From positions 1 to 23,809 of IMG/VR virus record IMGVR_UViG_3300020281_000129: 23,809 nt of DNA; one strand, given 5' to 3'. Made by a program: the position numbers and the translations under genes. Below the pieces are notes generated by a model. It searched no databases and was not told the DNA's origin. It saw only the letters and a list, made by a program, of their open reading frames with translations. Positions 1,737-14,839 of this stretch are shown here, one piece after another (within the stretch, counting starts at the first letter, position 1; the number at the start of each line of letters is the position of its first letter). Origin of the DNA: a virus.

Positions 1737-4700
1737 TTATCCTCCCAGGGCAAGTATCAATGGTGTAAGGTTTGCTTGTATCGCTCTATTGAAATCTCTT
1801 CCAGCAATAGTTGATGTTGTTTGGTTGATAACCAGTCCTTGACCAATTTTAAAGTTGCCTTTTTGGTCTGTGCTTGTGAATGGAATTTGTCCACCATTGA
1901 TAGCGACAATTTCATTCTCAGGAATAGGTTCTCCACCCTGGAAGGGGTTTGCTCTATTTATGTCCGTGCCCGCACCGACGTATTCAAATGAGTGCGAACT
2001 GGTGATAATGCGACTGAGGCGGCGGAAACTCATACTTACACCAGTTCCTACAGCATAAGGGACAAATTCATTAAAAGTAACAGTTGATAATCCAGTATTA
2101 GTAGTAGGTTCGGTTGACTTATCAACCGTGAATAAAATTGGGTCAGTGACTGCCTCTGCTGCTGCTCCGCCACCACCAGAGAAAGTAATTGAAATGTTCT
2201 GCTGATTATTACCAGAACCAGCAGGTAAGAAGTTTCTACCACTAGCAATAACATCAACAGAACTTACAGTTCCAGCAGCACTAACATTAGCAGATAATTC
2301 TGCCAGAATTCCCTCAGGACCAAATGGTGAGGATACAGTAACTGATGGTGGTGCCGACTGACTGTATCCAGATCCACCGTTTGTGACTTTGATATTTCTT
2401 ATTACTCTGAGGGGTTCAGTAACAATACCCGTCTTAGTTCCAGTATCAGAGTAATCATCAAGGTTTATCTTGAAGAAAGCACCTTGACCGTCAAATGGTT
2501 TTCTGACATCAGCATTATCATCACGAACACCAAATACTTGGAAGGTATCAACGTCTGCCAGTTTAGCACCAGTGGTAATACCAGTAAATTCGTCGCCACT
2601 CGTGCCATCAGCGAAAAGACCGAAAACACCAAAAGAAGAATTGGAGTTTGTAAGGTCACACTGACCACCACCACCAGCAAATATAGCAATTTTGGAGTTG
2701 ATTGTGAAGATAGAAACCAACTGTGCATATCCTTTGTTGACTATTGAAACACCAATCCCATTCTGATTGTATTGAGTATAAGAGTCAACAACCATACTCT
2801 TAAGGTCTTGTCCCAGATTATTAGTTCCAGTAAATGCTGCATTAGCAAGATCACCATCCACTCTCATACCGATGCTATCAGTAGCAAAATTAGTGCAGTT
2901 ACGAACGTATGGAGATCTCCATCTACCACTTGGACCTTCATTGGCAGGTCCTGGGGCAACATACCCACTATTCTGATTAGCAGTCAGTGGTGGGAAAGCA
3001 ACCATCGCACCAGTGTATCCAATGGCAACACTGTTACCAGCGAAGTTCATATTCTCAATCAAACAACCGCGTCTAACATGGAACAGGTCCTCTGCTGGAT
3101 TATTAGGAACAACGGTTACAAGTCTGAGATCTTGACCAGAGATAGAAACATCAGTTCTAAGTCCGATAGGATTATTTTCAAAGTATGTTCCGGGTCTTAC
3201 ATATATGGTGTCTCCATCCAGAGCAACTGCTGCAGCACCACCAATTGTAGCTTTGGCATCACCTTCAAGTAGTCCAGAGTTTGAGTCATTTCCATCTTTG
3301 GTGACATATAAGATATTTGTTGTTTCAACACCAGGTGGTCTCCACGATACACCAGTTCCAACTGAAGATAATCTGTAATCAGTCTTACCGGTGGCGACAC
3401 TACCGTTAATATCAATCAGAGCATTATTAAGTTCTAATGAACCATCAAGGACAGTGTTTCCATCAACTTTGAGTGCATTGTGGATTGTAGTAGCACCACC
3501 AACTGTTAATCCACCACCAACATTGGCATCTAAATCAACTCTTAATGTATTGTGAATTGTTGTGGCACCACCAACTGTAAGACCACCACCAACAATAACA
3601 TTATCTCTTGATGGATTATATCTGAATCCGGCATCAACTCTTACGGTTTCAATACCTGTAGATGCAGAGTTTGCAACAAAAGGAATGAAAAACTCTTGAT
3701 CTGTAAGAGTTTCAACAGTTTCAATAAATGTAGCAATACCTGCTCTAGTAGCATTTGTTGCTAATCCTGCTACCGTAGCAAAACCAGATTGTTTGGCGAA
3801 GGTGGAGAAACCAGCAATTCTTGCAAATGTAGCAGCACCTGAAACGGTGGAGAATCCAGATTGATTAGCAAAGGTAGCAATACCAGCGACAGTAGCAAAT
3901 CCTGTCTGACTAGCAAAAGTAACAATACCTGCCCTTTGAGCAAAAGTAGCAGTTCCTGATACTGTAGAGAATCCTGACTGGTTAGCGAAGGTAGCAATAC
4001 CAGCAATCGTAGAGAATCCAGTTTGATTTGCAACTGTAGCGACACCAGCAGTCTGAGCGAATGTTGCAGCAAAAGCAACTCTTGAGAATGTAGATATTCC
4101 TGCAACTTGTGCGAATGTGGCTGCAGCAGCAACAGTCGCAAATCCTGTTCTCCTCGCAAAAGTGGCAACACCAGTAACTGATGTAAATGATGCGGCAAAA
4201 GCTACGGTAGAAACACCAGCGTTGTGTGCGTAGATTGCCGTTGTTGCCGTTCCAGTGATATTATTGTTATGAACCCTTAAAGGGGCATCAATCCTTACAG
4301 TGTTGCCAAAAGTCGCTACACCAACTATTCCAATATTACCTCTGAATAATGCAAACCCATCAACATCCAGAGGAACTTCTGGTGATACTTTGTTAATACC
4401 TACATTAACTGTTGTATGTAATCCAGCATTATTTTTATTCCAGTGATCTTTGATGCGAATATCAACAGTGGTTCCATTAGCAGTTGCTTGAACTACATCA
4501 CCACCAGTGTCAGTTCCAATCAGGTTCATCGTGGTGAATGAACCAACACCAACTAATACACCTTCATTTTGAACAAAGAATCCGTCAGTCTGAGCATCTG
4601 GTGCAGCATTGACCCAACGAATACCATTTACATCACGAGAGAGGTAGAATCCATTGGATCCTTGATTATTAACAGAGTCAAAAATATTACCAGTGACCCT

Positions 4701-5117
4701 AAGTTCACTAACATCCAGATCCCTATCGGGTAGTGTACTACCTATACCTACACTGCCAGCGCGAGGACCTGAAGCATGACCTACAAGATATTGTGTGCCA
4801 GTATCAGTAGTGAGTTCAAATCTTTCGCGAACTGTCGCAATTCCAACATCAATGTGATTTACATCAAGTAACCCAGTAACATTAACATTTGAAAGTGTCG
4901 CAGTAGATGCTATAGAAACAGTGCTTTGAAATACTGAGGCACCAGCAAAGGTTGAAAGACCAGAAACATACAGATTAGAAATATCTGCCTGTTTCGTGAT
5001 AGTAAGATTCTCAAAATCAATAAAATCATAGTAAAGTTTTCCATAGACATAAACGTCTTTTAGAAACTCAACTTTCTGAGTAAATGTTGATTGGTTGTTA
5101 AAAACTTGATCGCTCAT
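1737..5117 (-). CDS. Large tail-fibre-like protein with pectate-lyase-like beta-helix
   Basis: 1126 residues. The ATG overlaps the stop of the spike gene (ATGA). Visible regions in order: a head region (1-140); GIG/VGI beta repeats with WNKNNAGLHTTVNVGI (226-241); a long low-complexity region of [AST]GF[AS]TV / ATFA repeats (295-465); a 24-residue duplication of GGGLTVGGATTIHN (509-552); a region resembling a right-handed beta-helix (about 600-850; YVTKDGNDSNSG, GDTIYVRPGTYFEN, IENMNF) as in pectate-lyase-fold fibres; a GSGY segment (905-985); and a C-terminal domain with DQKGNFKIGQGLVINQTT (1084-1101). It is probably a trimeric tail-fibre or baseplate-associated fibre. Whether the beta-helix degrades polysaccharide cannot be judged from sequence. 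Confidence 0.8.
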   Translation of the reverse strand: MSDQVFNNQSTFTQKVEFLKDVYVYGKLYYDFIDFENLTITKQADISNLYVSGLSTFAGASVFQSTVSIASTATLSNVNVTGLLDVNHIDVGIATVRERFELTTDTGTQYLVGHASGPRAGSVGIGSTLPDRDLDVSELRVTGNIFDSVNNQGSNGFYLSRDVNGIRWVNAAPDAQTDGFFVQNEGVLVGVGSFTTMNLIGTDTGGDVVQATANGTTVDIRIKDHWNKNNAGLHTTVNVGINKVSPEVPLDVDGFALFRGNIGIVGVATFGNTVRIDAPLRVHNNNITGTATTAIYAHNAGVSTVAFAASFTSVTGVATFARRTGFATVAAAATFAQVAGISTFSRVAFAATFAQTAGVATVANQTGFSTIAGIATFANQSGFSTVSGTATFAQRAGIVTFASQTGFATVAGIATFANQSGFSTVSGAATFARIAGFSTFAKQSGFATVAGLATNATRAGIATFIETVETLTDQEFFIPFVANSASTGIETVRVDAGFRYNPSRDNVIVGGGLTVGGATTIHNTLRVDLDANVGGGLTVGGATTIHNALKVDGNTVLDGSLELNNALIDINGSVATGKTDYRLSSVGTGVSWRPPGVETTNILYVTKDGNDSNSGLLEGDAKATIGGAAAVALDGDTIYVRPGTYFENNPIGLRTDVSISGQDLRLVTVVPNNPAEDLFHVRRGCLIENMNFAGNSVAIGYTGAMVAFPPLTANQNSGYVAPGPANEGPSGRWRSPYVRNCTNFATDSIGMRVDGDLANAAFTGTNNLGQDLKSMVVDSYTQYNQNGIGVSIVNKGYAQLVSIFTINSKIAIFAGGGGQCDLTNSNSSFGVFGLFADGTSGDEFTGITTGAKLADVDTFQVFGVRDDNADVRKPFDGQGAFFKINLDDYSDTGTKTGIVTEPLRVIRNIKVTNGGSGYSQSAPPSVTVSSPFGPEGILAELSANVSAAGTVSSVDVIASGRNFLPAGSGNNQQNISITFSGGGGAAAEAVTDPILFTVDKSTEPTTNTGLSTVTFNEFVPYAVGTGVSMSFRRLSRIITSSHSFEYVGAGTDINRANPFQGGEPIPENEIVAINGGQIPFTSTDQKGNFKIGQGLVINQTTSTIAGRDFNRAIQANLTPLILALGG
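3462..3593 (-). repeat. Direct repeat encoding GGGLTVGGATTIHN (two copies)
   Basis: Residues 509-528 and 533-552 are near-identical copies (VGGGLTVGGATTIHN followed by [TA]L[RK]VD) offset by 24 residues (72 bp). The DNA is also similar, suggesting recent duplication of one shaft repeat. Confidence 0.75.
3723..4235 (-). repeat. Degenerate coding repeat, [AST]GFSTV / ATFA units
   Basis: Residues 295-465 of the fibre-like protein are built from units such as SGFSTVSG-x-ATFA alternating with AGI-x-TFA-x-Q, spaced by 15 and 9 residues. The composition is almost all Ala, Gly, Ser, Thr, Phe, Val and Ile. At the DNA level it appears as imperfect repeats of gtagcaaa / gtagagaatcc words. It looks like a fibrous beta shaft and is prone to unequal recombination. 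Confidence 0.8.
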
Positions 5118-8954: not shown

Positions 8955-10309
8955 TAGCTTGATCTTTTTGGTGAACCGTGAGTATCTCTAATCAATTTCA
9001 TTGAGGTTGTGGATTGCTCATTGTCAAAGTGATGACACAACTCTTTAATCATATATAGACCACTCAATTCAGGATCAAATTCTTTACTTTCCGAAGAGGT
9101 TTTAGGAAAGTTACACTTAATAACATCACCAACTTCAAGATTTGTATTGACCGGAACTTGAATATCTAACGTCTGCATAAACAAAAGGTTATATCTCATA
9201 ATAGATTGCCTCTGATTATCAAAACCATTTGCATTCACTACCGGGAGATTAGAATCTGTCTGTGGTACATAAGCATCCTTTTCCATGGTCCCAACATCAC
9301 CGACCATGGAAATGATTCTACTAGGCAAATTTGTCAATTTTGGAGAACCAAGGATTTGAGGTATCTTAAAATCTTCACCCAACTTTACTCTTGGTTCTTT
9401 TTCTTGGATACTATAAAGACCTTTTGAAACACTGGAAAATCCACCAGTAGCAGGATTGAATTCTACAAAGAAAGAAGAATACATGCCTCTTCTTAATTTT
9501 GAAATCAAGTCATGATTAAGCGTAATGCTATATCCAAGTATTAAATCATCCGTATATTCTAAAGGTCCTGGAGCAGCAGGTTTGTAACTATATTCTGATT
9601 TTGGTGAAGCAATTCCCTGCTGAATTAATGATGATACTGATTTGAATTTGAATCCCTTCTGTGTTTGATAGAAAAAATATCCTGCTTCTTTATTTTTATC
9701 CACTGCTTTTGATGCCAACCAAACCAATATATTAAAAGGTTTCTTCATATTCCCCATGAAACCATACTGATTAGAGGAATCATCAGAATCAATAACTTTA
9801 GACCCAAGTTTATCCTTTACTATAAGACCTACAGACGTTTGAATAGGCAAACTTCTAGGAAATTTTTCATGAACTCTTGAAATTTCATTTGCGATAGATT
9901 CTCTTGAAACTAAATCTAAGGTAATCATTTCTCTGTTACCCTGCTTGACTCCAGAGGTTATCTTTGAAACATAAAAGTATGTTTCAGCACTATTGAAATC
10001 TAATGCTGGATTACCACCACTGCCTATTGGTCTACCAAAAGGTTGAATTTTTATCGCCACTCTTTCCCCACCTCTGAGTGGAAGACCACTGTAAATTGAT
10101 TCTGCTTTCCCATCTTTACTATTATCCGCAACCACTACGTTACCACCATCAACTATAGTTAACTTGGCAGTTCTCGTTGGGGAAAACAAATCTTCGTAGT
10201 AATTAAAACTAATTACACCTTGACTAATATCAATAGTCTTATCAGGATTGAATGAAGATTCAATCGTGAAAACTTGATATGAAGATGTTTCTACTGCTTT
10301 TCCTGCCAT
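8954..10309 (-). CDS. 27: Putative baseplate hub protein, gp27-like
   Basis: 451 residues. Its ATG overlaps the upstream stop (TAATG) and its own stop overlaps the gp5 ATG, so the three genes are translationally coupled. The N-terminal part (ISQGVISFNYYEDLFSPTRTAKLTIVD at about 28-54, then TYFYVSKITSG) resembles the first barrel domain of tail-hub proteins of the gp27 / Mu gp44 type. The later part has TLDIQVPVNTNLEVGDVIKCNFP and SGLYMIKELCHHFDN, typical of the second hub barrel and its closing strand. Being adjacent to the gp5 OB-fold gene supports assignment as the hub trimer that gp5 docks into. T4 gp27 is 391 residues. The call rests on motif layout and neighbours, not on strong identity. 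Confidence 0.65.
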   Translation of the reverse strand: MAGKAVETSSYQVFTIESSFNPDKTIDISQGVISFNYYEDLFSPTRTAKLTIVDGGNVVVADNSKDGKAESIYSGLPLRGGERVAIKIQPFGRPIGSGGNPALDFNSAETYFYVSKITSGVKQGNREMITLDLVSRESIANEISRVHEKFPRSLPIQTSVGLIVKDKLGSKVIDSDDSSNQYGFMGNMKKPFNILVWLASKAVDKNKEAGYFFYQTQKGFKFKSVSSLIQQGIASPKSEYSYKPAAPGPLEYTDDLILGYSITLNHDLISKLRRGMYSSFFVEFNPATGGFSSVSKGLYSIQEKEPRVKLGEDFKIPQILGSPKLTNLPSRIISMVGDVGTMEKDAYVPQTDSNLPVVNANGFDNQRQSIMRYNLLFMQTLDIQVPVNTNLEVGDVIKCNFPKTSSESKEFDPELSGLYMIKELCHHFDNEQSTTSMKLIRDTHGSPKRSS

Positions 10310-11727
10310 TACGCTGATAAGGTATGTTCTTGCATCCTAAAAAATGTTTCCATACCACTATTTAACCTAGAAGTTGGGAAGGAAGCAATAGAAGACGCTC
10401 CTTGATTCATAGGAGTAGATCTTTGAGCTGGTTGTGGTGCACCATTAATAATAATATTATTTGTTGCCACAGTTTGTGTTTGTGGTTGACTAATGATACT
10501 GCTACGAGTTTGAAAATTGCGATTGAATCTTTGAAATAAATTTCCTCTCCCAGGAGGATCAAGTTCTTTAGGGGGTGTGATATTATCAGACTGACTCGTA
10601 GGAGGTTTTTGATACTTTGAAGAATCAAAATCAAAGTGTGTTGAATCTGGAGAATATGTATTGTATATGAATCCAAATTTAGAACCGTTAGCACGAATCC
10701 ATTCGTCACCAGGACCAGGATTCATCATATTAATATCAAAAGCATTTCCTGTAAGATGATTAGATCCCTCAACACCACCAACACCAGCATTCTTTTGTGG
10801 ATCTCTCAAAGAACTTGTAATATATGAACCAAGATTAGCAATACCATCTGCTTCTGCTGCCTCTGCCATAGCTTTGAATGCCTCAGCGGCAGCAGCAGAT
10901 AATTTAATTGGTCTACCTTTATAATCTTTATATCCAGTATCTACAGGTCCTGTAGTTGGTGGATCAGTAATTGGTTGTCCTTTACTATTAACAGGATATG
11001 TGGTGTTGTTATTATTTTCAAAATTTACTTGATTTGAGGGACTTTCTTCTCCAAATAATTTTGAAATATCAAAATCTTTCAAATCAATATTCATCTGCTG
11101 AAGAAGACCTTGAGAGTCCTGTGCCAACATTTGAATTCCTCTTTCTGTAGAAAGGACCATTCTTTTGAAGGCATCATTCATTTTTGCCGTGGAGTTCTCA
11201 ATAGAAGTTTTAAATGTTTCAAAATTGAGATTGGTAATACTAGTGAATATTCCACCTATACCTTCACCAAAAGCAGTGAATAAATCAATTGTTCCACCAA
11301 AGAAATCCCTAATTACTCCCGAATATTCTTGCAGTCTTCCCGAAAAATCCTCTATTGTTTTAATAATTTTTGGTAGATTTACAACTGCCCATCCAACAAG
11401 AAGAGTACCAACAAAATCCATGATTCTGCCAAGGAATCCCTTTGTGCTCCTAACAATACTATTGGAGGGTCTTGAAGCAATAGTCATTCTACTTGTGGAC
11501 GATGCTTCAAGGAGATCCTCTCGTTCTTTTTTTCTAACAGAGTCCCTTCTCATTTTAAAGAATTTTGAATCGCTTGAGATTCCTTTCTTTTTTTGAAGAT
11601 TACTGTCTCTCAAAGTCCTAAAGATTGATGACGCAGACTTTGTAGTTGCAGCAATACTCTTCTGCAATCCAGAAATGGAATCTCTTATACCACTAAGACT
11701 TCTACCCGAACCATATGCGTATGCCAT
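10309..11727 (-). CDS. Tail protein with M15 (VanY-like) peptidase domain
   Basis: 472 residues. Regions in order: a basic, helical N-terminus (1-95); a hydrophobic segment (FVGTLLVGWAVVNLP, 105-119); amphipathic helices to about 225; a Pro/Thr linker; and a domain at about 270-370 with the signature of zinc M15 D,D-peptidases. The latter shows SSLRD (305-309), SNHLTGNAFDIN (322-333; predicted zinc ligands His324 and Asp331), W343, KFGF, and DSTHFDF (361-367; predicted catalytic Asp361 and zinc ligand His364). A Gln/Pro-rich end with NNIIING follows. It lies between the tape-measure-like and hub genes, so I infer a virion-carried peptidoglycan hydrolase that opens the wall during injection, replacing the lysozyme domain missing from gp5. 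Confidence 0.75.
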   Translation of the reverse strand: MAYAYGSGRSLSGIRDSISGLQKSIAATTKSASSIFRTLRDSNLQKKKGISSDSKFFKMRRDSVRKKEREDLLEASSTSRMTIASRPSNSIVRSTKGFLGRIMDFVGTLLVGWAVVNLPKIIKTIEDFSGRLQEYSGVIRDFFGGTIDLFTAFGEGIGGIFTSITNLNFETFKTSIENSTAKMNDAFKRMVLSTERGIQMLAQDSQGLLQQMNIDLKDFDISKLFGEESPSNQVNFENNNNTTYPVNSKGQPITDPPTTGPVDTGYKDYKGRPIKLSAAAAEAFKAMAEAAEADGIANLGSYITSSLRDPQKNAGVGGVEGSNHLTGNAFDINMMNPGPGDEWIRANGSKFGFIYNTYSPDSTHFDFDSSKYQKPPTSQSDNITPPKELDPPGRGNLFQRFNRNFQTRSSIISQPQTQTVATNNIIINGAPQPAQRSTPMNQGASSIASFPTSRLNSGMETFFRMQEHTLSA

Positions 11728-13103
11728 TAGATTCCGATACCTCCAACATTATACTGGATATATGAATGCATCATATAAGGGTTGTCAGAATTGGTGCTAG
11801 GAATGAATACTATGTTGTTACCAGTTCCAGATCCTCCAGAAGTTGAAGTTTCTTCAACTTGTCCTTGACCACCACCAGCATTAACAATCAAATTATTCAC
11901 CCTCTGCTCATCCCGCTTTAAGTCTGCTTCACTCTTTGTTGCCCCACTAATTAAGGTACTGAGATCACCACCAACCAAGTCACTAAGTGTGGTATCTCCA
12001 CCAGGAACTTGTATCCCCGATTGGCGATATAATTCTGGAAGTAAAAAGGATCCTCCAAAACCACCAGCAAGTCCAAGTAATGGAGCCATTATGGGAGATG
12101 CTGGACCAGTAAGCATTCCAAGTCCAAATCCAATTTTACCACCTAAAGTCGCACCACCTCCAGCTAAAAGTGATTGATCTAGAGGTGCTCCAAAAAGAAA
12201 ATTCAGACCAGCAATACCTGCACCACCAGTCAATCCACGCAATAGTCTTGTACCAATATTACCTCTAGTCGGTGGAGTGGGTGAAGTGGGTCTTCCACCA
12301 GGTGTAGTGGTTTGCTGACCGCTAGGTGGATTAGGTCTTCCGCCAGATGTAGGTCTTCCTCCAGGTGTGGTCCCAGGAACTTGTGGAAGACCGCGAATTT
12401 TATTTACGATACCTGATAAAATGCCACCAGCAAGAGTAAACGCAGCTTGAATAGGTCTAAGTAGGAAGTTTCTGAGAGCAAAACCACCTAACCTAGCAGT
12501 TAAAGCACCTAATGTTCTTAATGCTAGTACAAATCCACCATTAAGACCTATGAATATTGCTGTTACTATCGCAAGGTCTTTTTTTATTCTGTCAAATAAA
12601 TTTCCAAGAGAAAATTTACCCTCAGAAGATAAATCACCAACTACTTTTAATATACGAGCACCTAAAGCACCACCTATTAAGATTTGGAAGAATCTACCAA
12701 GATTGAACAGAGACCTTTGTGCTTTACCACCTATCTTTTGTAATGGTGCGGCAAGAGCAGACTGTATTCTTTTTTCAATTAATCCTTCTTTCCCTTCGCG
12801 TATTCTCTGCGATGCTAATATTCTTTCTTGATTATCTTTCTGTCTTTGTTGTGCTTGCTCTAGTATTCTTGACTGCTCAATCTGAGCAGATATTGCCTGA
12901 AAAGAATTATTTAAACCTGCTATCTGGTTGGTGACATTAGCGAGAGATAGGTTGACACCTTGAAGTGCCATTTGATTTCTTCTTAACGCCGCTACAGTTT
13001 CAGGGTCTTGTACTGGTTGTTCAGGACGACCCATGATTGCGTTAGCAGGAATCATATTCCTCCTAACTCTCATTCCTAGTATTGGCGACGAAATCTCAGC
13101 CAT
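11727..13103 (-). CDS. Putative tape-measure-like tail protein
   Basis: 458 residues. The ATG lies inside the 3' end of the small ORF (8-nt overlap) and the stop overlaps the next gene (TAATG). Residues about 35-115 are a likely coiled coil rich in Gln, Arg and Glu. Residues 137-235 contain several hydrophobic stretches (FFQILIGGALGARIL, LAIVTAIFIGLNGGFVLALRTLGAL, AFTLAGGILSGIV). Residues 244-280 are a Pro/Gly/Thr linker with repeated TPGGRPTS. Residues 285-355 are Gly-rich and hydrophobic. The C-terminus has NNIVFIPSTNSDNPYMMHS. Helix plus membrane-like segments, and the position directly after the predicted gp26 frameshift, match tape-measure genes of long-tailed phages. At 458 residues it is short for a sole tape measure, so it may work with the next gene product. 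Confidence 0.55.
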   Translation of the reverse strand: MAEISSPILGMRVRRNMIPANAIMGRPEQPVQDPETVAALRRNQMALQGVNLSLANVTNQIAGLNNSFQAISAQIEQSRILEQAQQRQKDNQERILASQRIREGKEGLIEKRIQSALAAPLQKIGGKAQRSLFNLGRFFQILIGGALGARILKVVGDLSSEGKFSLGNLFDRIKKDLAIVTAIFIGLNGGFVLALRTLGALTARLGGFALRNFLLRPIQAAFTLAGGILSGIVNKIRGLPQVPGTTPGGRPTSGGRPNPPSGQQTTTPGGRPTSPTPPTRGNIGTRLLRGLTGGAGIAGLNFLFGAPLDQSLLAGGGATLGGKIGFGLGMLTGPASPIMAPLLGLAGGFGGSFLLPELYRQSGIQVPGGDTTLSDLVGGDLSTLISGATKSEADLKRDEQRVNNLIVNAGGGQGQVEETSTSGGSGTGNNIVFIPSTNSDNPYMMHSYIQYNVGGIGI

Positions 13104-13284
13104 TTAAGTTAGATTGTTGTGCTTTAAGATTTTCTTCTTCAATGTATTGCTGTAAGAATGTGAGATAGACTTCTCTTTCCCACGGTATCATGTTTTCAAT
13201 CTCTGTTAATGAGTATTTATGATGCTGAATCAAGGCAAAATTTGTTTTGAAGTATGACTCAAGGTCCTCATGAGCCATACTCAC
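13096..13284 (-). CDS. Small ORF, likely expressed as -1 frameshift extension of gp26
   Basis: Reading from GTG 13284 gives 62 residues; the in-frame ATG at 13278 gives 60. The peptide is acidic and helical with a conserved-looking core (LIQHHKYSLTEIENMIPWERE). No Shine-Dalgarno sits at a usable distance from GTG or ATG: GGAGGG ends 18 nt before the GTG, and the ATG falls inside a predicted hairpin. The frame is open back to a stop about 35 nt upstream of the gp26 stop, and a T TTT TTC heptamer lies in that shared stretch. I infer the ORF is mainly made as the C-terminal 63 residues of a gp26 fusion, although independent coupled initiation remains possible. By position it corresponds to T4 gene 51, but it is far shorter. 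Confidence 0.7.
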   Translation of the reverse strand: MSMAHEDLESYFKTNFALIQHHKYSLTEIENMIPWEREVYLTFLQQYIEEENLKAQQSNLNG

Positions 13285-13308
13285 GCGAAAAAAGCGTTTA
13301 GTCCCTCC
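13250..13308 (-). promoter_or_regulatory. Predicted -1 programmed ribosomal frameshift site
   Basis: Three elements are seen on the minus strand. GGAGGG lies at 13308-13303, with 9 nt to the heptamer. The slippery heptamer T TTT TTC is at 13293-13287, in the gp26 frame as TTT TTC. After 4 nt there is a hairpin with arms 13282-13271 and 13261-13250: 12 bp including two G-U pairs, with a 9-nt loop. The gp26 TGA follows the heptamer after one codon. A -1 slip leads straight into the 62-codon ORF. SD-like element, heptamer and hairpin have the same order and nearly the same spacing as in E. coli dnaX. Confidence 0.8.
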
Positions 13309-13997
13309 AGAAGGATTTCATTATCTACATCAGTATTAGGATTCTTGACCTTTACTGTATGTGATAACTTAGGCATTGTTTCAAAGAACTTTTCAATTTC
13401 TTTGAATTGCTTTGAACTTAACTGCTCAAGAAATTCATTCATCTCTTTAGGAGTGCAGTCAGCAGCAGACCAAGATTCCTCTTCATTAAAAACCTGTTCA
13501 ACACAAGAAGAGATCAAGTTAAACGTTCCTTCTACTGTAATCTCTTCACCACTAAAGTTGTTTTTGACAAACTCACTCATTGATGGATATTTCATTCTAA
13601 GTGTGAGATCACTATCTAAAACAATATCACGAGAGTGTCCCTCACCTTTCTGAACTTTGATATCATCAAGGTTGATTACAGTCGGAACTTGAGTCTTTCC
13701 ATCATCAGGACAAGTGACGAGAACTTCAACATCCTCACCAACAGACTTACCTCTGATGTTGAGGAAAAGATATTCAATATCAAATGTAGCAAGATCATCA
13801 ACCTTGACTCCACGAGTCAAGATACAATTCTTGATTACGTCTTTGACTGCAGAAGCAATCTGACGTTCATCCTCACTTTCCATGGCGATAATTAGAACCT
13901 TTTCTTCACGAACTAGAAAAGGTCTATACTTAATTTTTTTCCCCGTTGATGGCAAAACCAACTCATATGTTGGGGTAGAAATTCTTGGTAAAGGCAT
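13281..13997 (-). CDS. 26: Baseplate hub / tail assembly protein gp26
   Basis: 238 residues, with the typical start of the T4 gp26 baseplate family: TPTYELVLPSTGKKIKYRPFLVREEKVLIIAMESED (8-43). The middle has LFLNIRGKSVGEDVEV and the region after it is acidic. The 0-frame product ends at TGA 13283-13281. A predicted -1 frameshift at 13293-13287 would instead give a 300-residue protein: 237 gp26 residues plus 63 from the overlapping frame. In T4, gp26 is needed to build the central hub of the baseplate and is now thought more likely to help assembly than to be a major virion part. Here the position just before the tape-measure-like gene fits a tail-assembly chaperone. An ATAAATA box lies just upstream, across the end of the gp54-like gene. 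Confidence 0.85.
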   Translation of the reverse strand: MPLPRISTPTYELVLPSTGKKIKYRPFLVREEKVLIIAMESEDERQIASAVKDVIKNCILTRGVKVDDLATFDIEYLFLNIRGKSVGEDVEVLVTCPDDGKTQVPTVINLDDIKVQKGEGHSRDIVLDSDLTLRMKYPSMSEFVKNNFSGEEITVEGTFNLISSCVEQVFNEEESWSAADCTPKEMNEFLEQLSSKQFKEIEKFFETMPKLSHTVKVKNPNTDVDNEILLEGLNAFFA

Positions 13998-14017: not shown

Positions 14018-14026
14018 TATTTATTA
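14018..14026 (-). promoter_or_regulatory. Late-promoter-like box TAATAAATA
   Basis: The minus strand reads TAATAAATA at 14026-14018, 20 nt before the gp26 ATG, and includes the TAA stop of the upstream gene. It matches the T4-type late -10 element (TATAAATA) at seven of eight positions. It would allow gp26 and the following genes to be transcribed separately from the gp54-like gene. Confidence 0.5.
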
Positions 14027-14839
14027 GCTCAATCCTCTAGTTGAGTTTGGTAAAGAATCTGTTCTTGTATCGAGACCTCTCCACTTTAAAAATTCTTCTG
14101 CGTTCATAAAACTAGATCCATCTTGATTCTCCTCTTTAATCACACTATCCCTTGTATCTTGGAAGAAATTGTCTAGACCATTATATTCTATTTCATTTCC
14201 AGTCTTGTTACCCTCTCTACCTCTCGCCACCGAGAAACTATCGTATTTACCCATAAGATACCTATCAAAGCTAAAGGTAACAGTCGCTTTCAAGACTTCA
14301 GACTGTTCATATCTGACTGGAGTAGATGTTAAATCAATCGGAAATAGACCAATGAATTTATATTCTAACTCTTCATTATAATCTCTGTCAAATTTGATAA
14401 TTTTAGTTTCATCACATTTATAGGTATCAGGATACTCCATTCTTACATAATAATCTTTACTTGATTGACGATTTAATCTAGATGTTGATCCATTAGCAAT
14501 GAATTCCATCCAGTGCTCAAGGAACTTCAAAGTTTTATACTCATTATCCACATAGAACTCAAGTTGAATTTGAGTGAAGATTCTTGAGTGTGCCATCTTC
14601 TCTGAAACACCCATGCGGTTGCCAACAATATCTGCCGTGGCAAGTCTACTGCCAGGAAGCAGCGCACTATTACAGAGCAATCCAGCAGTCTCCGAAACAA
14701 ATCTACTGTTAAGACCTCTTACTCTAAGATGCTGTCTGAGCATGAGGGGCAGACCAGCAAAAAACACTTGATAGTGAGAAGTCTGTGCAAGATTGGTGAA
14801 GGTTGGTTTGAAGTCTGATATTCTGCGAGGTCTTACCAC
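14024..14839 (-). CDS. 54: Putative baseplate tail-tube initiator, gp54-like
   Basis: 271 residues from a GTG at 14839; no closer ATG fits the N-terminus. AGG about 8 nt upstream is a weak ribosome binding site. The protein reads like a tail-tube-fold protein: YQVFFAGLPLMLRQHL, a segment giving FVSETAGLLCNSALLPGSRLATADI (48-72), FTQIQLEFYVDNEYKTLKFLEHWMEFI, YYVRMEYPDT, and FIGLFPIDLTSTPVRYEQSEVLKATVTFSFDRY near the end. The SALLPGS...ADI and FIGLFPIDLTS...ATVTFSFDRY blocks recur in T4-type tube and tube-initiator proteins. As gp48 is recognised on the other strand and gp19 normally lies in the sheath region, I call this gp54-like. It is first in the leftward late operon. Confidence 0.6.
   Translation of the reverse strand: MVRPRRISDFKPTFTNLAQTSHYQVFFAGLPLMLRQHLRVRGLNSRFVSETAGLLCNSALLPGSRLATADIVGNRMGVSEKMAHSRIFTQIQLEFYVDNEYKTLKFLEHWMEFIANGSTSRLNRQSSKDYYVRMEYPDTYKCDETKIIKFDRDYNEELEYKFIGLFPIDLTSTPVRYEQSEVLKATVTFSFDRYLMGKYDSFSVARGREGNKTGNEIEYNGLDNFFQDTRDSVIKEENQDGSSFMNAEEFLKWRGLDTRTDSLPNSTRGLS

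Follow-up and report, generated by a model that had tools for sequence, protein, structure and literature searches.

Evidence for a probable -1 programmed frameshift that joins gp26 to a gp51-type extension in T4-like phages

The gp26 gene of the marine T4-like phage described here very probably has a -1 programmed frameshift at its 3′ end, which would give rise to a short and a long tail assembly chaperone of the lambda G/GT type; that slippage takes place, how often it does so and that the products act as chaperones are our inferences. The DNA analyzed, termed the window, is IMG/VR virus record IMGVR_UViG_3300020281_000129 over its positions 1–23,809 (23,809 nt), and the features of interest are on its minus strand (Table 1). 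A previous sequence-only reading of the window had proposed that gp26 and its fusion are the T4-type equivalent of lambda G and GT. This proposal is supported by the conserved slippery heptamer and Shine-Dalgarno (SD)-like element, the always-open -1 frame, the stem, which displays covariation as well as constraint on synonymous codons, and the small open reading frame of relatives, which is without a start codon or an SD sequence. It is further supported by the gene order, by T4 gp51, which is homologous to the fusion over its whole length, and by a chaperone-like structural model of gp26.

Layout of the gp26 junction

Inspection of the minus strand sequence shows that the elements of the junction agree base for base with the description given in the sequence-only reading. 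The sizes are also as it gave them: gp26 has a chain length of 238 aa, the -1 frame adds 63 codons, and the fusion has 237 + 63 = 300 residues. The stem consists of 12 bp, including two G-U pairs, encloses a 9-nt loop at positions 13262–13270 and begins 4 nt after the heptamer. The -1 open reading frame that follows the two Phe codons ends at position 13096, and in relatives the extension carries the annotation “gp51”.

Folding of an 86-nt RNA segment yields the 12-bp stem. The minimum free energy (MFE) of the whole segment is −22.8 kcal/mol (z = −2.23), and 8 of 200 shuffled sequences fold as well as the segment does. The sequences ACGC and GCGT flank the heptamer (window positions 13283–13297, minus strand), and pairing between them could place the heptamer in a hairpin loop. 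This small ACGC/GCGU helix of the MFE structure was discounted, as the alignment columns that form it are variable among relatives.

Table 1. Coordinates in the window of the gp26 junction and the neighboring genes
Feature	Position	Strand	Basis
Tail-tube-like gene directly upstream of gp26	14024..14839	-	PF23849, E 2e-16; phrog_45 tail tube, E 2e-43
gp26, putative short tail assembly chaperone (0-frame product), 238 aa	13281..13997	-	PF12322, phrog_150
Putative fusion, long tail assembly chaperone, 300 aa, T4 gp51 equivalent	13096..13997	-	T4 gp51 alignment
GGAGGG, predicted SD-like stimulator within LEG codons, 9 nt before heptamer	13303..13308	-	sequence and junction counts
Slippery heptamer T TTT TTC, gp26 frame	13287..13293	-	335/338 loci vs 3.3% of controls
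gp26 stop TGA, one codon (GCG) past heptamer	13281..13283	-	sequence
Stem 5′ arm	13271..13282	-	folding; clade A covariation and codon constraint
Stem 3′ arm	13250..13261	-	folding; clade A covariation and codon constraint
-1 extension, 63 codons after slip (RVSMAHEDLESYF...NG) and stop; predicted C-terminal domain of long form	13096..13287	-	phrog_634, phrog_150
Probable tape measure gene, 458 aa, immediately downstream	11727..13103	-	position and composition only

Conservation of the slip site and of the RNA elements

Loci were sampled from IMG/VR scans and from named phages, and 338 of these have a readable gp26 and gp26 stop. An in-frame TTTTTTY is found near the gp26 stop in 335 of the 338 loci (320 TTTTTTC and 15 TTTTTTT); the loci are related to one another and the counts do not represent independent events. 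The heptamer is located one codon before the stop in 293 of the 335. In every one of these heptamer loci the -1 frame is open and, wherever the contig reaches that far, its stop codon is 56–73 codons on; the +1 frame is shut within 35 codons. For comparison, 633 further Phe-Phe pairs within the same loci were analyzed as controls. The codon pair TTT TTC makes up 6% of these, and T followed by TTTTTY is found at 3.3%. Besides cyanophages, the loci come from phages of Sinorhizobium, Vibrio, Aeromonas, Stenotrophomonas and Desulfovibrio, whose gp26 sequences have roughly 22%–40% identity to the gp26 of the window. A scan of IMG/VR contigs with the Desulfovibrio phage gp26 as query confirmed no relative.

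The three loci that do not contain the heptamer are those of T4 and of Vibrio phages K364 and D533. Relatives without a heptamer in which the small open reading frame has a start, which the sequence-only reading had counted as evidence against itself, are limited to the two Vibrio phages. Their junctions (L086:3200–3260 and L186:2560–2600) show a TAATG overlap and retain the domain of the extension or the beginning of it; judged by their sequences, they look as if they have switched to reinitiation. A different arrangement is displayed by the MC09-type clade (L091, L093–L103), where the gp26 stop comes immediately after the heptamer (TTTTTTC TAG/TAA) and where stems are present in differing registers, i.e. 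GATGCAC/GTGCATC or CATAATAAT/ATTATTATG.

The sequence-only reading had called for the heptamer, SD-like element and stem to be compared across T4-like cyanophages. The heptamer and the SD-like element prove to be general, whereas the stem is confined to the clade of the window (clade A). Of 263 distinct junctions, 192 have GGAGGG, GAGGG or GAGG exactly 9 nt 5′ of the heptamer. The Glu codon within this element is GAG at 168 of 212 LEG sites, whereas GAG accounts for 31% of the Glu codons in the rest of gp26.

In clade A, 79 distinct junctions have at least 8 of the 11 stem pairs tested. The top covarying column pair of the clade is a stem pair, which changes from U-A to G-C. In a gp26 tree built without the junction region this pair has switched 2–5 independent times; rigorously supported covariation events are few, namely two, on starred branches of the tree. 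Since the change on one side is a synonymous one at the third base of an Ala codon and the change on the other side turns Glu into Ala, the RNA pair outweighs the residue. Paired codons of clade A are frozen (GAG in 61 of 61 and TCA in 78 of 79), whereas a His codon whose third base is unpaired alternates between CAT and CAC. In a second clade a short GRTCC/GGAYC hairpin takes the place of the 12-bp stem, and no clear downstream structure was seen at the junctions of several other clades. A universal stem is thereby ruled out; the stem is specific to the clade.

Relation to T4 gp26 and gp51 and to tail assembly chaperones

The gp26 sequence matches PF12322, the T4 gp26/gp51 family, with an E-value of 2e-74 and 250 bits (curated cut-off 24.5). 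It also matches positions 5–232 of the 282 positions of phrog_150 (E = 1e-80). The extension matches phrog_634, “baseplate hub assembly catalyst” (E = 2e-27), and positions 238–278 of phrog_150. Thus the two open reading frames tile a single family model. T4 gp51, which is encoded by a single continuous gene (249 aa), covers phrog_150 positions 13–280, and T4 gp26 covers positions 14–235. A profile of the putative fusions aligns with T4 gp51 straight through the junction (conditional E = 4e-16) and with T4 gp26 only as far as the junction. These alignments indicate that in T4 a separate gene encodes each of the two forms, whereas the long form of the window needs both frames. T4 gp26 resembles the short form, and gp51 the whole fusion; unlike the window, T4 has two divergent, separate genes and the heptamer is absent. 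The T4 gp51 protein is essential and is missing from the finished particle (PMC3004832).

The gene order in the window is tail tube, gp26 with its extension, and putative tape measure, where the identity of the downstream gene is assigned by position and composition only. This 458-aa gene displays no Pfam family and no convincing PHROG match. It is followed by a gene of 472 aa, and homologues of the tandem pair are found in syntenic position in P-SSM2 and other close relatives. The two genes (window positions 10309–13103, minus strand) have a TAATG overlap and occupy a place that is taken by one long gene in several further T4-like phages. The 472-aa gene shows a weak match to peptidase M15, and also a weak match (E = 2e-4) to the homologue of the 458-aa gene in locus L022, hinting, at the sequence level, at an old duplication behind the tandem genes. 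Further along the window (positions 1737–5117, minus strand) a tail-fibre-like protein is encoded, in which short degenerate repeats of the type GIATFANQSGFSTVSGTATFA are numerous.

A structural model of gp26 was made from 28 sequences of the window and IMG/VR (pLDDT 88), and its residues 1–96 were compared with known structures by VIA. The best match is 2OB9, the tail assembly chaperone of HK97 (Z = 7.9, rmsd 4.0, 84 residues aligned), together with 3FGX (Z = 7.9, rmsd 4.0, 86 aligned) and YqbN 3KLU (Z = 7.1, rmsd 4.2, 86 aligned), a Z near 8 being the level at which the tool itself advises caution; the match that follows has Z = 5.0. Like 2OB9, 3FGX and 3KLU are tail assembly chaperones. Foldseek comparison of the model with the PDB gave no match with an E-value below 0.001, and the fold resemblance is therefore counted as supporting and not as proof. 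Sequence searches of the PDB with gp26 and the extension gave nothing relevant, and at the sequence level the gene 26/51 family (PF12322) showed no match to an HK97 chaperone. The predicted N-terminal domain of gp26 thus resembles a tail assembly chaperone, a likeness that supports a chaperone role but does not prove it.

Alternative explanations, known systems and proposed mechanism

That the heptamer is nothing more than Phe-Phe coding sequence, overlapped by an incidental open reading frame, can be practically dismissed. TTTTTTC by itself is common in the window (10 occurrences, 9.4 expected), so that the weight of the heptamer comes from its conservation; however it is present at 99% of the loci and at 3.3% of the control Phe-Phe pairs, and the -1 frame is universally open and encodes a conserved domain. 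This conservation is not due to chance. RNA polymerase slippage on the T run, giving an mRNA with one U less (or two more) that is then read normally, is highly improbable. The run is homopolymeric, and bacteria use transcriptional slippage to similar ends (PMC5009743), but the run is exactly six T long in 254 of 263 distinct junctions, a length that makes such slippage unlikely, and slippage in bacteria has been described on runs of nine A or T (PMC5009743). The fixed 9-nt spacing of the SD-like element and the stem also point to the ribosome.

An improbable alternative, yet the one with the most in its favor, is that the small open reading frame is a separate gene (“gp51”) with its own start, or with termination-reinitiation at the ATG 2 nt past the gp26 stop. 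It is annotated as its own coding sequence in P-SSM2, phiM7, nt-1 and P-RSM4, the ATG is present in 79 of 79 distinct clade A junctions and in 160 of 263 overall, and Vibrio phages K364 and D533 have TAATG with no heptamer. However at 75 of the 263 distinct junctions the first 12 extension codons include neither ATG nor GTG nor TTG, and separate initiation cannot account for these; they still encode the conserved peptide, e.g. RIALLHTNL. An SD sequence precedes the first ATG in 1 of 160 junctions, against 98 of 263 for the start of gp26 itself. The ATG lies within the stem, as the sequence-only reading had stated, and an independent start is ruled out for most relatives, where the start codon or the SD sequence is missing. 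A separate gene also leaves the near-invariant heptamer without an explanation, and T4 gp51 is one continuous protein over the junction. As regards annotation, the extension begins about 50 nt too far on in the S-RIM2 record (L185:2212–2399) and has no annotation in that of S-WAM1 (L092:3203–3393).

A -1 frameshift in tail assembly chaperone genes is conserved in long-tailed phages, lambda gpG/gpGT included (reviewed in PMC5009743). The window resembles the lambda system in having a short protein and a -1 fusion encoded between a tail tube gene and a gene at the tape measure position, with the signal where the short gene ends and, in the gp26 model, a chaperone-like N-terminal fold. The slippery heptamer of lambda is a different one. 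Unlike lambda, the window has the heptamer U UUU UUC, a recognisable SD-like element and, in its clade, a stem. In these last features it resembles E. coli dnaX, which has an SD-like element, slippery heptamer and downstream stem-loop. The term “dnaX-type”, used in the sequence-only reading, thus fits the layout but not the identity of the heptamer, which is U UUU UUC and not A AAA AAG. Also, the dnaX frameshift yields a shorter product (PMC5009743), whereas that of the window would give a longer one.

A 2022 study by Vladimirov, Gautam and Davidson (Virology 566:9–15) reportedly identified the tail assembly chaperones of T4-like phages, and its title emphasizes a mechanism other than frameshifting. 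The PRFect paper (PMC10885494) cites it for the presence of a short and a long gene in some T4-like phages, and PMC12846349 credits it with poly-T slip sites that lie in the short chaperone gene of T4-like phages. As these papers present it, the locus and the assignment of short and long chaperones are the same as here. In the literature located, frameshifting at the gp26/extension locus was found only in such citations. The idea of a gp26 frameshift in T4-like phages is therefore probably for the most part not new and already in print, and with the G/GT frameshift also known, the window is, so far as the citing papers tell, a further and unusually clear instance. The RNA signals that would help the slip appear to be less studied than the T4-like frameshift itself; the stem, with its covariation and its restriction to one clade, may be new here, as may the quantification of the SD-like element.

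In the proposed mechanism of -1 frameshifting, most ribosomes would reach the TGA and release the 238-aa short chaperone. In a fraction of cases both Phe-tRNAs would slip from UUU UUC to UUU UUU, aided by pairing of GGAGGG with the anti-SD of 16S rRNA and, in the clade of the window, also by the stem. The slipped ribosomes would continue for 63 codons and produce the 300-aa long chaperone as a minority product. Short and long proteins would act as gpG and gpGT do in lambda, covering the tape measure protein and recruiting tail tube subunits to it, and T4 would produce the same pair from separate genes, with gp26 as the short form and gp51 as the long.

On balance we favor, with some reserve, an evolutionary scheme in which the slip site and the SD-like element are old and near-universal in T4-related phages outside the T4-like coliphages, and in which the stem has been swapped or lost by clade, tuning the ratio of short to long form. 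T4 would then have split the pair into gp26 and gp51, and the “hub assembly catalyst” gp51 would be a GT-like chaperone. In this way the essential but unexplained gp51 of T4 would find a place in the tail assembly chaperone scheme at large. The analysis offers a testable account, at the level of single bases, of how abundant marine T4-like phages may make both forms of the chaperone, and shows that the extension is entered in records as a separate or truncated gene, or is left out of them. Through the clade-specific stems it becomes possible to test how phages adjust the balance of short and long form.
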